Shown one piece after another: positions 362 to 14,809 of a stretch of DNA of 15,040 bases (position 1 is the stretch's first letter; every line of letters starts with the position of its first letter). The position numbers and the translations under genes are program-made. Origin of the DNA: Candidatus Mcinerneyibacteriota bacterium (GTDB taxonomy: Bacteria > AUK180 > JAQVHJ01); assembly GCA_030630935.1 (NCBI GenBank), contig DAOVMD010000021.1, positions 1 to 15,040 on the forward strand. Direction: 5' to 3'. Below the pieces are notes generated by a model, which saw only the letters and a list, made by a program, of their open reading frames with translations, made no database searches and had not been told where the DNA came from.

Positions 362-1654
362 ATGATGGATTTCCTGTTTTCATCAATTCCGGCTAAAGCT
401 TTCTGGTTTGGTATAATTAGTGCGGTATCTTTACCGATTGGAGCGTTTTTAGGTATTTTGTTCAAGCCTCCGAAGAAATTTGTTGCAGCACTCATGTCTT
501 TTGGAGCTGGAAGTTTAATAGCCGCCTTAACCATTGAGTTGGTCGGTCCTGCAATCGAACATGCCGGATATTGGCCAATGGCTGCTGGTGCGGTTACTGG
601 TGGTATTTTATTTGTATGTCTGAATCAAGTTATTAACAGTCAGGGTGGTTTTTTAAGGAAGCAAGCCACTACCATGCGTCATTTGTTCAAAACCAAGAAA
701 GCTCTTTATAAAGAGATGATTGACGATATTTCAAACGCCGAGGTTTTGAGGTCATTACCTCCCTCCGAGATTCAAATGCTAATTCCTTATATAGTTGCTG
801 TTGAATTTGATGCTGATAAAATCATTTTTACTCAGGATGAAATTGGAGATTCTTTCTATTTAATTAGGAAGGGTGAGATTGAAGTTATCAGGAATCAAGA
901 AAAGATCGCGACGCTTTCTGAAGGTGAATGCTTTGGGGAGATGTCTTTATTATCAGGTGAGTCGCGAAATGCTACGTTGAAAACGATTACAGAAGTGAAG
1001 TTATGGAAAATTCAGAAGGATGATTTTGATAAGCTAATCCAACTTTCTCCAAAGTTATTGACAGCAGTTAATTTGGTTACAGAACAAAGAAAAGCAGAGA
1101 ATATAGATATTGACTTTAAGAATCGTCACGAGTGGCAATCTGAAGTTTTTAAACATATCGACTCTTCTTCATTTTCCTATACAGAGAGAGATCTTCAGGA
1201 AGCGGTTAAGTCTCAGGCCGGGAAGAAGGTTGGGTTAGCAATATTTTTAGGAATACTTCTTGATGGTATCCCTGAGTCTGCAGTAATTGGTGCGAGTATG
1301 TTAAGGAAAGAAATAAGTATGGCATTGATATTAGGATTATTCCTCGCAAATTTACCGGAAGCTATGTCAAGTGCTGTGAATATGAAAAAACAGGGTTCTT
1401 CTACAATGAAGATTATGTCGATGTGGATTTTTCTTACTTTAATGACTGGTTTTGGTGCATTAGCAGGGAATATATTTTTTCAAGATGCTTCACATTTGGT
1501 TTTTGCACTTTTTGAGGGTTGTGCTGCCGGGGCGATGCTTGCAATGGTTGCAGAGACGATGCTCCCTGAAGCTTATGAGCAGGGTGGGGCAGTGGTTGGG
1601 ATATCAACTTTGCTGGGGTTTCTCGCTACTCTCCTGATCAAATATGTGTTTTAA
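362..1654 (+). CDS. ZIP-family-like metal transporter with internal cyclic-nucleotide-binding domain
   Basis: This is a predicted inner-membrane protein of 430 residues. Hydrophobic segments at about 12-33, 41-60 and 72-92 are followed by a cytoplasmic insert (about 95-285), then at least four more segments (288-310, 317-335, 352-372, 380-400) and a last one near 408-428. Residues about 125-240 form a cyclic-nucleotide-binding domain with the phosphate-binding cassette FGEMSLLSGESRNAT (191-205), including Glu193 and Arg202. The flanking segments resemble the ZIP metal-binding helices: DGIPES (301-306) stands where ZIPs have HNxPEG, ANLPEA (329-334) is the second helix motif, and AGAMLAMVAETMLPEA (389-404) matches the late ZIP helix. 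The histidine of the first motif is Asp301; the glutamates (305, 333, 398) remain. AGGAG at 346-350 favours the first ATG. Divalent-metal transport gated by cAMP or a related nucleotide is inferred; a sensor without transport is possible. Confidence 0.8.
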   Translation: MMDFLFSSIPAKAFWFGIISAVSLPIGAFLGILFKPPKKFVAALMSFGAGSLIAALTIELVGPAIEHAGYWPMAAGAVTGGILFVCLNQVINSQGGFLRKQATTMRHLFKTKKALYKEMIDDISNAEVLRSLPPSEIQMLIPYIVAVEFDADKIIFTQDEIGDSFYLIRKGEIEVIRNQEKIATLSEGECFGEMSLLSGESRNATLKTITEVKLWKIQKDDFDKLIQLSPKLLTAVNLVTEQRKAENIDIDFKNRHEWQSEVFKHIDSSSFSYTERDLQEAVKSQAGKKVGLAIFLGILLDGIPESAVIGASMLRKEISMALILGLFLANLPEAMSSAVNMKKQGSSTMKIMSMWIFLTLMTGFGALAGNIFFQDASHLVFALFEGCAAGAMLAMVAETMLPEAYEQGGAVVGISTLLGFLATLLIKYVF

Positions 1655-1755: not shown

Positions 1756-3948
1756 ATGAAATCTCAATCGGATCAAAATAGATTTTCTCTTGATAGACTT
1801 ATTTTTGAAAATATTTTTAATGCGGTATTTATAACCGACATTGATGGTAAGATTCTAAAATGGAATCCGGGTTCAGAACAGATGTTCGGGTACAAATTAA
1901 AGGAAGTTCTTGATACGAATGTTTTTAATATTGTTAAAGTTTTTAAAAGAGAAGATAATTTAAAAACTGTAATTACAGAGGTATCAGAAGCTGGTTCTTG
2001 GTTGGGGGACTTGATTTTTAAGAATAAAAATGCTAATGATATTGATTGTGAATCTAGGTTATTTTTGATTTCAGAGAACTCCAATTCCAGGATTCTTTGG
2101 ATAAACAGCAATGTAACTCTACCTCACCAAGCTGAAAAAGCCCTCAAGGCAAGTGAAGAAAAGTATAGAAATATAATTGATCAAGGTAGTGATGGTATTG
2201 TTATAATACAGGATGGAGTTGTAAAGTTTGCAAATACGCGAATTTGTGAGATTACCGAATCTACCTTAAAAGAAGTTCTGGAAACTCCATTTATAGATTT
2301 TGTAACTCAAGATCATAAAGAATATATTTTAACATTCTATAATACCAGATTAACCGGAGGTGAAGTTCCCGGTCGTTATAATTTGACGTTATTATCAAAA
2401 AGCGGGATTGAAATACCAGTAGAGGTGAATGCTACAATAATTGACTATGAAGGCAAGTCGGCAGATTTAGCAATAATTAGGGATAATACAGAAAGGTATA
2501 ATGCAGAGCGGATTAAGACGGCATTATTTCAAATTGCACAATCAGCCAATTTATCTGATAACCTCGAGGATTTATTAAAATTTGTTCATAAGCAATTAAG
2601 CGAGTTAATAGACACAACTAATTTCTATATTGCCCTTTGGGACAAAGAAACCGAGGCATATACATTTCCATATTTTATTGATCAGAAACTTGAGGTGCTA
2701 AATTATACACAGAAAAAGTTAAAGAAAAGTCTCACCGATTTTGTTCGAAGTACCGGTCGTCCTTTATTAATTAATAGGAAGATGTATGATGACTGGGTGA
2801 AAACAGGTAAGATCGAGGTTATTGGAATTCCCTCAGAAGTTTGGCTTGGAGTTCCTTTGAAGACTGCCTCAGGAACAATAGGAATTGTTGCAGTAAAGAG
2901 TTATGAAAGTGAGTCAGTGATATCTGAAGAAGATATGGATTTGATGATGTTCGTATCCGGAAATATTGCAATGGCAATTGAGAGAAAACGAGTAGAGCAG
3001 GCCTTGAGGGAAAGTGAACAGAAACATAGAATCCTTTTAAATGCGATACGTTTTCCTGTATTAGCTTTAGACAGGAATATGAAAATTCAATATTGCAACA
3101 CGGCATTTGCTGATTTTCTTGATTTGCCGATAGAGAAAGTAATCGGAAACAGAATGATAGACATAGACCCGGATTTTGAGGAGAAGGAAACGTATAATGC
3201 ATACAAGGAAGTCATGGAAACGGGTGAGTCCCAGGAGATTTTACTTAAGCTTAATGATCATTTCTGGCACATCTGGATTTATAATATTTCAGCGGGTGCA
3301 TTAAGTATTTCATATGATATTACAAAACAGAAATTTGCAGAAGATGAGCTTCACAAGAGCTTAAAGAAATTAAGACGATTGACAGAAGAAGTAATAGACG
3401 CAATGTCATTAACTGTTGAGACCAGGGATTTATATACTGCCGGTCATCAGAAGCGAGTTGCTCAGCTTGCAGTTGAGATTGCCCGTAAATTAAATTTTTC
3501 GGAAGATGAAATTCGTGGTTTGAAAATGGCTGCAATAATTCATGATATCGGCAAGATTTATGTACCTGCAGAGATATTAAGTAAACCTAGTACATTATCC
3601 GATATTGAATTTAATATAATTAAAGTTCATCCTCAAGTCAGCTATGATATTTTGAAAACCATTGAATTCCCATGGGAAGTTGCAAAAATTGTTCTTCAGC
3701 ATCATGAAAGGCTTGATGGGTCAGGTTATCCGAACGGTTTGAAGGCTAAAGAAATTTTAATTGAAGCCCAGATACTTGCAGTTGCAGATGTTGTTGAGGC
3801 GATGACATTTCATAGACCTTATCGTACTGCCCTGGGGATTGATAGTGCATTGGCTGAAATTAAAACCAATAGCGGTAAACTTTATAATCCCGAAATTGTT
3901 AATGTCTGCCTTAAAATATTTGAAGAAGACACATTCACTTTTGAATAG
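1756..3948 (+). CDS. PAS-PAS-GAF-PAS-HD-GYP protein, probable cyclic di-GMP phosphodiesterase
   Basis: This is a 730-residue soluble signalling protein with no membrane segment. Domains in order: PAS at about 14-125 (NAVFITDIDGKILKWNPGSE), PAS at 137-246, GAF at about 254-412, PAS at 425-523, a short helical linker, and HD-GYP at about 545-728. The catalytic domain keeps the family signatures: an early His in YTAGHQKRV (560-568), HDIGKI (596-601), the His of HP (625), HHERLDGSGYP (649-659) and RPYR (687-690). Known HD-GYP enzymes hydrolyse cyclic di-GMP to pGpG or GMP at a two- or three-iron centre; here activity is inferred from intact ligands. Three PAS and one GAF domain suggest several cytoplasmic inputs, with ligands unknown. 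The ribosome site is weak (TTGGA, 1746-1750). A GGDEF cyclase lies about 9 kb downstream. Confidence 0.93.
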   Translation: MKSQSDQNRFSLDRLIFENIFNAVFITDIDGKILKWNPGSEQMFGYKLKEVLDTNVFNIVKVFKREDNLKTVITEVSEAGSWLGDLIFKNKNANDIDCESRLFLISENSNSRILWINSNVTLPHQAEKALKASEEKYRNIIDQGSDGIVIIQDGVVKFANTRICEITESTLKEVLETPFIDFVTQDHKEYILTFYNTRLTGGEVPGRYNLTLLSKSGIEIPVEVNATIIDYEGKSADLAIIRDNTERYNAERIKTALFQIAQSANLSDNLEDLLKFVHKQLSELIDTTNFYIALWDKETEAYTFPYFIDQKLEVLNYTQKKLKKSLTDFVRSTGRPLLINRKMYDDWVKTGKIEVIGIPSEVWLGVPLKTASGTIGIVAVKSYESESVISEEDMDLMMFVSGNIAMAIERKRVEQALRESEQKHRILLNAIRFPVLALDRNMKIQYCNTAFADFLDLPIEKVIGNRMIDIDPDFEEKETYNAYKEVMETGESQEILLKLNDHFWHIWIYNISAGALSISYDITKQKFAEDELHKSLKKLRRLTEEVIDAMSLTVETRDLYTAGHQKRVAQLAVEIARKLNFSEDEIRGLKMAAIIHDIGKIYVPAEILSKPSTLSDIEFNIIKVHPQVSYDILKTIEFPWEVAKIVLQHHERLDGSGYPNGLKAKEILIEAQILAVADVVEAMTFHRPYRTALGIDSALAEIKTNSGKLYNPEIVNVCLKIFEEDTFTFE

Positions 3949-4018: not shown

Positions 4019-4047
4019 TTGAATATAATAAAAAAATATGTTATAAT
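4019..4047 (+). promoter_or_regulatory. Promoter of the zinc-ribbon membrane protein gene
   Basis: TTGAAT (4019-4024), 17 bases, TATAAT (4042-4047). Initiation near 4054 would leave a leader of only about 10 bases before the ATG at 4064. An in-frame TTG at 4019 coincides with the -35 box and would lie upstream of the transcript, which argues against it as the start codon. Confidence 0.6.
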
Positions 4048-4063
4048 AATAAAAAAGAGAAAA

Positions 4064-5140
4064 ATGAAGTATTGTCAGATTTGCGGAATTCTTTATCAAT
4101 CGACTGATTCAATATGCGTGGAGTGTAAGGAGAACTTATCAGAATTAAAAGCCGGCTGGTTAATTGAACTTTCACCTGGTAATGTTTTGGTTTTAACAAC
4201 ATCAGAGGTTAAAGCCCGGATTAAGAAGAATGAATTTTCTGCATACCATAAGATCATTGGTCCGGGCGATAAAGAGTGGAGTCGAATCTTCGAAGTTTCT
4301 TTTTTTCATAAACTTTTTTCCCGTGAAGATAATTGGACTCTTCAACTTCCTGAAGGTTTTCAATATCCGATTAGTAAAGATAAGATCGTCAAGTTAATAA
4401 AAGAAAAATCCTTAACCGGTGATGAAAAGTGTTTTCATCCGAGTGAAAATAAATGGTATTTGGTAAAAGAGTGTGTTGAATTTATTTACCTATTTGAAAC
4501 AGGGTTAAAAACCTGTAGTTATTGTGGAGCGAAGAATGCAAAAACCTCAGTATTATGCTGGAAATGTTTTAAGGCATTTATCAATCCGGATAATAAAGGT
4601 TTTGAAATTAACGGAAGTCGAATTACTTTGGAAGAACCTGAAGAGGTTGCTCTTGAACGGAAAAAATTCAAAGAAAGAAAATTAGCACGGAAGCGGCTTA
4701 CTATACAATTAATTGCAATATTTATTGTAGTTGTAAGTTTAGGATTAGTGATAAGGTTTCATAGGATGAGTCAGGTAGAAAATTTTGAAATCGCAAAGGG
4801 AGTAGAGCTTTTCAACACTACTTCCCATTGGGAAGAGAAGGAATATGGCGGGTATAAAGTAAAGAACTTTGTGATTTCAGGAAAGCTAAGAAACAGTTCA
4901 AATACTTCAAAAAAAATAGTTATTCTTACAGGTTATATTTTCACAACAAACTCCAAGTTGATTTCGAAAAAGAGTGTAAATGTTTTTAAGGAAATGAATT
5001 TAAATAAACCAACAATTTCCAAAGGTGAACTGATAAATCCAGGTGAAGAGTTTAATTTTGAAATAAGATTTTACAGGAGCGATATTTTTGGTAAGGATAT
5101 CAGTTCCTGGGATGTGAGAATAACAAAAGTTATTGAGTAG
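4064..5140 (+). CDS. Double zinc-ribbon, single-pass membrane protein with DUF3426-like outer domain
   Basis: This is a 358-residue protein of unknown function. A four-Cys zinc ribbon opens it (Cys4, 7, 18, 21). Two related segments follow (about 40-85 and 98-144), each with a helix rich in Ile/Lys, a central Trp (72, 131) and a final LF; they look like a tandem copy of a GYF_2-like input fold. A second zinc ribbon has Cys151, 154, 165 and 168. After a strongly basic helix (199-211) comes one membrane segment (about 212-231), then a domain (about 240-358) with the FVISGKLRNSSN and NPGEEFNFEI pattern seen in DUF3426/FxLYD-type proteins. The topology should be N-terminus inside, C-terminus outside. 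I start at ATG 4064, because the ribbon begins there and the TTG at 4019 overlaps the promoter. The ribosome site is weak (AAGAGA). Confidence 0.8.
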   Translation: MKYCQICGILYQSTDSICVECKENLSELKAGWLIELSPGNVLVLTTSEVKARIKKNEFSAYHKIIGPGDKEWSRIFEVSFFHKLFSREDNWTLQLPEGFQYPISKDKIVKLIKEKSLTGDEKCFHPSENKWYLVKECVEFIYLFETGLKTCSYCGAKNAKTSVLCWKCFKAFINPDNKGFEINGSRITLEEPEEVALERKKFKERKLARKRLTIQLIAIFIVVVSLGLVIRFHRMSQVENFEIAKGVELFNTTSHWEEKEYGGYKVKNFVISGKLRNSSNTSKKIVILTGYIFTTNSKLISKKSVNVFKEMNLNKPTISKGELINPGEEFNFEIRFYRSDIFGKDISSWDVRITKVIE

Positions 5141-13321: not shown

Positions 13322-14809
13322 TTGAATCAGCGCTTTTTAGTAAAAACAACAACTAAGGTTTTACTTTTAATTGCCTGCCTTTCTGCTTTCTTAGATGTGC
13401 TGAAAATTCATAGGGGGATAATTTTTGTATATTCAGTCTTGCTGGTTTTATTTATCTTCTTCTTCATAAAAAAGATTAATTTAAAAGCTTTTATCTTGTT
13501 GAGCGGCTGTAACTTAATTTTATTTACCGGGTTTAAGATTATAAACGGGATTGAAATTAAAAATTTAATCTTTTTTATCGTGACATATTTATTTTTATTA
13601 ATGCTTTTTTACTTAATTTATTTAAGACGAAGTTCATTTTCAAAAGAAAAGTTTAAGAAGGAGAAAGGTTTTATAACAAAACTCATGGTTTTAAAAGCAG
13701 CAAAAACCAAGATAAATCGAAAAGTTGATAATGTAGATAGAGGGATAGAAGATATTTTAAATATTTATGACCTGAATAAGGAATTTGAGAAAATTCAAAA
13801 ACTGGAAGATGCATTAAAGGTTTTCAGTCAATTTTTCAAAGACCGCTATGACACGGATAGATATTTTTTCATTTTCAAAAAAGAAGATGAGTCTGATGTA
13901 TCCTTTGAGAAAGTTTCCAATGGTTTTAATTTAGAGCATTCAAAGATATCGTCAATTAATCTTAAGAACCTGAAGGAATTAGAGCAGCTTTTTTATTCAG
14001 ATAAAACGGTATTCTGCAAGGATTTTAGGAAATCAAAAAAGTACCACCAACTCTATGTTTATTTTCCTGCTGCAGAATTTGTAAGTATTCCGATAATTTC
14101 TGAGGATCTTGGCGTTGGTTTGTATATTTTATTTTCTAATCCAACCAAGCCATTTCCGAGAACTCTAAGGAAGGAGCGGGATACCCTTGCCCAGTTAATA
14201 AACGGGATATTAAGGAAGACCCTTCTTTATGTTAAGATGGAACGTCTTTCTGAGATAGATGGGCTTACCAAAATTTATTCGAGAGGTTATTTCAATAAAA
14301 TACTTGAAGAGTTGATCTCAGTCGATCAAAAGGAACAGAAATGTTTTTCTCTTTCAATTTTTGATATAGATTTTTTTAAATCCTGCAATGATAATTATGG
14401 CCATCAATTTGGTGATTATGTTCTTCGCAAATTATCCGACTTAGTCACCAGGTCTCTTACGGATAAGGAGATATTTGCCCGGTACGGCGGAGAAGAATTC
14501 ATAATAATCTTTCTCGGTCTAACAAAAAAATATGCAGGTAAGATATTGGAGGATATTCGCAAGACAATCGAAGATTATGAATTCAATGCGGATAGAAACT
14601 TTGTCAAATTAACTGTTTCATTTGGATTGAGCCAATTTCCTGAAGATGGAGCTGACTCCAAAACAATTCTCAAGAATGCAGATCAGGCATTATATACTGC
14701 AAAAAACACCGGTCGGAATCGGGTCGTGGTTTTTGACAGAGACGCACGTGATGAAATGGATAAAAAAACAAAGAAAAATACCAGACAGGGACTTGAAAGA
14801 GACTTGTAA
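13322..14809 (+). CDS. Membrane GAF-GGDEF protein, probable diguanylate cyclase
   Basis: This is a 495-residue inner-membrane signalling protein. About four N-terminal membrane segments (13-29, 32-50, 55-75, 79-101) carry a basic cytoplasmic linker, a divergent GAF domain (about 150-300) and a GGDEF domain (305-472). The active loop is GGEEF (389-393), preceded by ARY. SEIDGLTKIYSRGYF (310-324) and FDIDFFKSCNDNYGH (347-361) are the usual substrate and metal elements, so it should make cyclic di-GMP from two GTP. The product-inhibition site (RxxD before the active loop) is absent: the aligned residues are Thr-Asp-Lys-Glu (380-383). The start is TTG with a strong AGGAG. With no promoter visible after the tRNA, it is probably read from the tRNA-Ser promoter. 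The short, charged C-terminal tail (473-495) is unassigned. Confidence 0.9.
   Translation: MNQRFLVKTTTKVLLLIACLSAFLDVLKIHRGIIFVYSVLLVLFIFFFIKKINLKAFILLSGCNLILFTGFKIINGIEIKNLIFFIVTYLFLLMLFYLIYLRRSSFSKEKFKKEKGFITKLMVLKAAKTKINRKVDNVDRGIEDILNIYDLNKEFEKIQKLEDALKVFSQFFKDRYDTDRYFFIFKKEDESDVSFEKVSNGFNLEHSKISSINLKNLKELEQLFYSDKTVFCKDFRKSKKYHQLYVYFPAAEFVSIPIISEDLGVGLYILFSNPTKPFPRTLRKERDTLAQLINGILRKTLLYVKMERLSEIDGLTKIYSRGYFNKILEELISVDQKEQKCFSLSIFDIDFFKSCNDNYGHQFGDYVLRKLSDLVTRSLTDKEIFARYGGEEFIIIFLGLTKKYAGKILEDIRKTIEDYEFNADRNFVKLTVSFGLSQFPEDGADSKTILKNADQALYTAKNTGRNRVVVFDRDARDEMDKKTKKNTRQGLERDL

Follow-up and report, generated by a model that had tools for sequence, protein, structure and literature searches.

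A cyclic-nucleotide-binding domain inserted into a ZIP-fold metal transporter of a Candidatus Mcinerneyibacteriota bacterium and its relatives

The window, which is the whole stretch of 15,040 nucleotides analysed here, carries on its forward strand a gene at positions 362-1654 for a protein of 430 amino acids. It is near certain that this protein is a ZIP-type transporter with a cyclic-nucleotide-binding domain (CNBD) inserted into it. The reading frame begins with three transmembrane helices, TM1-TM3 (residues 1-93; 362-640), followed by the pre-CNBD helices, with a GGFLRK motif after TM3 (residues 94-124; 641-733), the CNBD itself (residues 125-245; 734-1096), a post-CNBD linker (residues 246-288; 1097-1225) and finally TM4-TM8 (residues 289-429; 1226-1648), all on the forward strand. 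Both domains expected from a sequence-only reading of this DNA came up in a Pfam search: cNMP_binding (PF00027) at residues 147-227 (E=2e-20; 73 bits, above the cut-off of 27.5), and Zip at residues 276-424 (E=4e-6), which for the single sequence reached 26.6 bits, below the curated 35.1. There is no other Pfam domain in the frame (CNBH_CNNM2_C gave E 0.1), and it is the sole Zip-profile match found in the host genome, which is 80% complete. When the single protein was used as the query, the best 60 PDB sequence matches included CNBD proteins, with cGMP-dependent kinases, PKA regulatory subunits and SthK at their head.

Two genes of the c-di-GMP type flank the transporter locus, as judged by Pfam: a PAS/GAF/HD-GYP-type gene at 1756-3948 (forward strand), 100 bases downstream of the transporter, and, at the opposite end of the window, a gene for a GGDEF protein at 13322-14809 (forward strand). 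Among relatives, no neighbouring gene is widely shared. An open reading frame at 4019-5140 (forward strand) encodes 373 amino acids, in which CxxC clusters resembling zinc ribbons occur together with one hydrophobic segment; it has no Pfam match. No conserved operon partner was found across about 80 loci of the family, so that the neighbourhood indicates no pathway for the transporter; the commonest neighbour cluster is an ABC ATPase of generic appearance, present at 14 of these loci.

An AlphaFold model built from a 77-sequence alignment has a pLDDT of 92.6 and a pTM of 0.84, compared with a pLDDT of 83 for an earlier model from five sequences. In this model, TM1 (9-34, kinked), TM2 (38-68) and TM3 (70-93) are followed by a short helix (96-99) and an entry helix (101-123), then by the beta roll of the CNBD, helix alphaC (230-244) and linker helices between 255 and 285; TM4 (289-312), TM5 (320-343), TM6 (348-372), TM7 (378-408) and TM8 (411-429) complete the chain. 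VIA-align ranked BbZIP structures at the top (8ght, Z 24.3 over model residues 3-430; 7z6m, rmsd 2.3 Å over 226 residues), and residues 101-249 matched CNBD structures at Z 16-18.5, among them the channels AKT1 (Z 18.5), MloK1 (Z 17.9) and SthK (Z 16.7). The only matches of a profile made from the membrane parts alone of seven sequences were BbZIP structures, at E 6e-44 to 4e-46, with BbZIP aligned along the entire membrane part. This profile match, together with the structure match, rules out that the protein is not a ZIP, as the Pfam Zip score below its cut-off might suggest. A Foldseek listing for the whole model, ordered by E-value, contained CNBDs only; we regard this as a ranking effect, as VIA-align placed BbZIP first. 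A search of a viral structural library gave no useful match.

The sequence-only reading had described a full CNBD between the third and fourth hydrophobic segments, an FGEMSLL cassette with Arg202, and ZIP-like Pro-Glu motifs in the later helices. All of this stands: Pfam cNMP_binding and the model give the order TM1-3, CNBD, TM4-8; the cassette and Arg202 are where they were placed in the 77-member alignment; and the motifs are DGIPE in TM4 and NLPE in TM5 (Pro304 in 74 of 77 members, Pro332 in 76). That reading had also staked its idea of cyclic-nucleotide control on a ZIP fold and on a nucleotide pocket in the insert; the predicted fold is that of ZIP (VIA-align Z 24.3), and in silico the residues of a working pocket are present. 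The wide spread of the family, the lack of the phosphate-binding arginine in about a quarter of its members and a metal site without the zinc-type histidine were not part of it.

Of the 194 relatives found by scanning about 85,000 species, the 80 with the highest scores were taken further, ahead of 114 that score lower, and each of the 80 matches nearly the whole query. The sequence-only reading had supposed that such a fusion may exist elsewhere and, indeed, all of the best 80 loci carry the architecture. They come from Spirochaetota, Bacteroidota, Elusimicrobiota, Nitrospirota, Pseudomonadota, Myxococcota, Latescibacterota, Rokuibacteriota, Planctomycetota, Acidobacteriota and others, and every record among them is labelled a MAG. 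The family thus spans many phyla but, among named records, MAGs only, which may explain why it is unstudied. A full-length search of 60 relatives gave four further fused proteins at 41-49% identity, and a search with the C-terminal half found fused genes in ten of 386 sampled genomes, the window's own included. In these ten, the C-terminal half is at least 53% identical and the frames are 431-487 amino acids long; the next three matches fall to 37-40% identity and frames of 248-274 amino acids, which is a clean break. With this domain order kept in more than 80 genes, a chance or artefactual fusion, or read-through of two genes, is ruled out. In two fused homologues (L046 and L099) the frame is broken, early in L046 and before the end of the 1807-base match in L099, by a frameshift, an insert or an assembly error.

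In a tree made from the membrane columns only, by a quick method without bootstrap and with some long outgroup branches, 79 fused sequences form one side of a single branch (SH-aLRT 99). As the fused sequences share this one branch, the simplest reading is that the CNBD was inserted in a single event; independent gains were rejected because one change suffices on the tree.

Conservation is uneven along the protein. Mean pairwise identity among 77 members is 0.48 for residues 9-93, 0.34 for the CNBD, 0.23 for the linker, which varies more than any other part, and 0.57 for TM4-8. Several positions are nevertheless invariant in all 77: Gly95 and Arg99 in the pre-CNBD stretch, Gly171 and Gly192 in the CNBD, and, within the variable linker, Trp258 (1133-1135, forward strand), a candidate coupling residue. 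The phosphate-binding cassette (residues 190-206; 929-979, forward strand), which aligns with PKG cassettes, holds Gly192, Glu193 and Arg202. Glu193 is present in 72 of 77 members and Arg202 in 57, and all 57 with Arg202 also have Glu193. Arg243 in helix alphaC (1088-1090, forward strand) is a candidate purine-lid arginine: the structure match to MloK1 ends with 244 on 349, which would set Arg243 opposite MloK1 Arg348, a ligand-contacting residue. It goes together with Arg202, being present in 53 of the 57 members that have Arg202 vs three of the 20 that do not, although well-supported branches offer only two independent comparisons. The window protein keeps Glu193, Arg202 and Arg243 and is of the intact kind.

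Arg202 has been lost only in some Bacteroidota, in Lysobacterales/Chromatiales and in marine gammaproteobacteria; the tree requires no fewer than four changes and holds only two to four independent losses, so that sequence counts overstate independence. In one Bacteroidota subclade (L064, L066, L077, L081 and L084), the domain is kept and the cassette glutamate and arginine are lost, with approximately YGIVExxTGxxHNY in place of FGEMAL..R.A; its CNBD may bind another ligand or none. Since 20 of 77 members have lost Arg202 and kept the domain, a CNBD can persist here without ordinary cyclic-nucleotide binding. Conceivably, then, the CNBD serves for structure, dimerisation or docking and not for cyclic-nucleotide control of transport, in the manner of the CNNM CNBH domain, which keeps the fold, binds no cyclic nucleotide and dimerises (PMC6429129); the invariance of Trp258 and the metal site in both Arg202 groups would also fit. 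We consider this unlikely. The window protein and 56 others keep Gly192, Glu193, Arg202 and, nearly all, Arg243 in a fast-evolving domain; cyclase genes are abundant; and the match to the CNNM profile is as poor as stated above.

The host genome could supply the signal: its 3.2 Mb (80% complete) hold 27 matches to class III cyclases (PF00211), many compared with the median of 1 in sampled genomes of other phyla. Three cyclases were readable: two (L108 and L112) keep the metal-binding Asp pair, Lys, Asp, Asn and Arg, the residues of active class III cyclases, and the third (L110) has SDAVN where GDNVN is expected. Several of the cyclase matches sit in very long frames of more than 1,000 amino acids. 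Ten genomes of the family have 3-28 cyclase matches (median 8.5) vs a median of 1 in 55 others (p=3e-4), a difference that holds outside the window's own class, and genomes of Arg202-bearing members have a median of 8 vs 2 where Arg202 is lost (p=0.001); shared ancestry and genome size confound both comparisons. These counts agree with cyclic-nucleotide control and do not prove it. The most likely controlling nucleotide is cAMP. In cGMP or cAMP cassettes, the residue after the arginine is usually Thr/Ser or Ala, and the window protein has Asn203 at this place. The structural matches include the HCN2 CNBD solved with cUMP and the PycTIR CNBD, so a transporter that responds to another CNBD ligand, such as cCMP or cUMP, may be imagined; the host genome is rich in class III cyclases that carry the standard catalytic residues, which speaks against it, and we hold it to be highly improbable, the least probable of the readings weighed here.

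The metal site departs from that of BbZIP. The alignment replaces BbZIP His177 by Asp301, Asn178 by Gly302 and Gln207 by Ala329, Asp208 by Asn330 and Glu240 by Thr362, and keeps Glu181 and Glu211 as Glu305 and Glu333. Asp301 and Glu305 lie in the TM4 motif DGIPE (1262-1276, forward strand), and Asn330 and Glu333 in the TM5 motif NLPE (1349-1360, forward strand). Asp301, Asn330 and Glu333 are present in all 77 members and Glu305 in 76. The histidine-containing binuclear site of BbZIP-type zinc ZIPs (M1 His177; M2 Asn178/Asp208/Glu240) is absent, and with Asp301, Gly302, Asn330 and Thr362 at these places, the protein falls outside the BbZIP zinc-type subfamily. Short relatives without a CNBD share the Asp/Glu site, which is thus a subfamily trait older than the CNBD. 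Because the zinc-site histidine is Asp in every member, zinc is doubtful as the main substrate; a site of Asp, Glu, Asn and Glu without His, all oxygen, favours a harder ion. Judged from these residues, the substrate is more likely to be Mn2+, Fe2+ or some other divalent ion harder than Zn2+ than Zn2+ itself. Competence for divalent-metal transport is assumed from the modelled fold, with the M2 ligands Asn178 (now Gly) and Glu240 (now Thr) gone.

Such a reduced site (His177 to Asp, Gln207 to Ala, Asn178 to Gly, Glu240 to Thr), together with a cytoplasmic CNBD that could couple in either direction, leads to another possibility: the protein may be a receptor and not a transporter, reporting metal status either through a change that metal bound at the ZIP site causes in the CNBD or by releasing or sequestering the nucleotide. 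However, the protein has no fused output domain and no recurring partner gene, Asp301, Glu305, Asn330 and Glu333 are essentially invariant, and the shortest relatives are the transporter alone; we consider a receptor very unlikely. A regulated transporter remains the preferred reading.

We propose the following mechanism. The protein is probably a dimeric, elevator-type, ZIP-fold divalent-metal transporter, the activity of which is set by a cyclic mononucleotide from class III cyclases; its dimeric state would follow that of BbZIP. From the computed fold, pocket residues and cyclases we infer binding, transport and the direction of control, and cyclic-nucleotide-dependent control of metal transport is likely. 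TM3 of BbZIP is part of the scaffold and of the dimer interface, and TM4 is part of the transport domain (PMC9873690, PMC10256678); the loop between them has a regulatory role, folding back to sense zinc and so limit uptake (PMC10256678). As this loop is already regulatory in BbZIP, the CNBD has been inserted at an established control point. Lying in the cytoplasmic TM3-TM4 loop, the CNBD would link the fixed scaffold (TM3, at the dimer interface) to the moving domain (TM4). With nucleotide bound, helix alphaC would fold over the pocket and shut it; this closure may shift the following linker, with the invariant Trp258, and the shift may in turn alter the freedom of TM4 and the metal site to slide. 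Control would thus be exerted by pulling on TM4. We moderately favour activation over inhibition, that is, nucleotide binding would relieve a restraint, as in most CNBD proteins. An insertion that joins the two elevator halves would give a ligand-controlled handle with which to study the gating of the elevator motion. For the family as a whole, we lean slightly towards a widespread clade of metal transporters gated by a second messenger: the CNBD would bridge the elevator scaffold and the mobile domain, and cAMP/cGMP would directly gate divalent metal uptake, some lineages having later lost ligand binding, so that their domain would work constitutively or answer a different signal.

Fusion of a CNBD to a transporter is already known from MFS proteins and SLC9C1. 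A CNBD-ZIP fusion was not found in the open-access literature searched, to which it is new, and the same search agrees with the sequence-only reading that knew of no characterised example. BbZIP of Bordetella bronchiseptica (PDB 5TSB, 7Z6M, 8GHT) shares the eight-helix fold, the Pro-Glu motifs of TM4 and TM5 and a regulatory TM3-4 loop at the place of the insertion; it differs in that this loop is short, His-rich and zinc-sensing instead of a CNBD, and in its metal ligands His177, Asn178, Gln207 and Glu240, which are not kept. The closest CNBD-less relatives are short bacterial and archaeal ZIPs, mostly 37-47% identical in the C-terminal half, some on plasmids and annotated as 'ZIP family zinc transporter' (e.g., Pantoea WP_120456739.1). 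They have the same DGIPES and NxPE motifs, but are about 250 amino acids long, with no CNBD and only a short basic stretch as the TM3-4 loop. SthK and MloK1 share the CNBD fold with lead-in helices, cassette and alphaC; they are tetrameric K+ channels whose CNBD is C-terminal, not between transport helices. The sperm Na+/H+ exchanger SLC9C1 is a secondary transporter that cAMP modulates directly through a CNBD, as we propose for our protein, and the CNBD mutation R1053Q abolishes this modulation (PMC6052114); it is an animal protein, however, with an unrelated exchanger domain and an additional voltage sensor. Bacterial MFS-CNBD fusions, noted as 'plug and play' regulation, also combine a bacterial transporter and a CNBD, but have an unrelated fold, and MFS regulatory domains are usually C-terminal (PMC10710835). 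The CNNM magnesium transporters are metal transporters with a CNBD-like domain, but this domain binds no cyclic nucleotides and sits C-terminally, and the membrane domain is unrelated (PMC6429129); the CNNM/CorC hallmarks, a DUF21 membrane domain and a CBS pair, are absent from our protein in the Pfam scan. In the literature compared, ZIPs are regulated by a TM3-4 loop that senses metal and by endocytosis and degradation. If our proposal is true, metal supply and cAMP/cGMP signalling would be joined in one polypeptide, possibly as a direct on/off switch.
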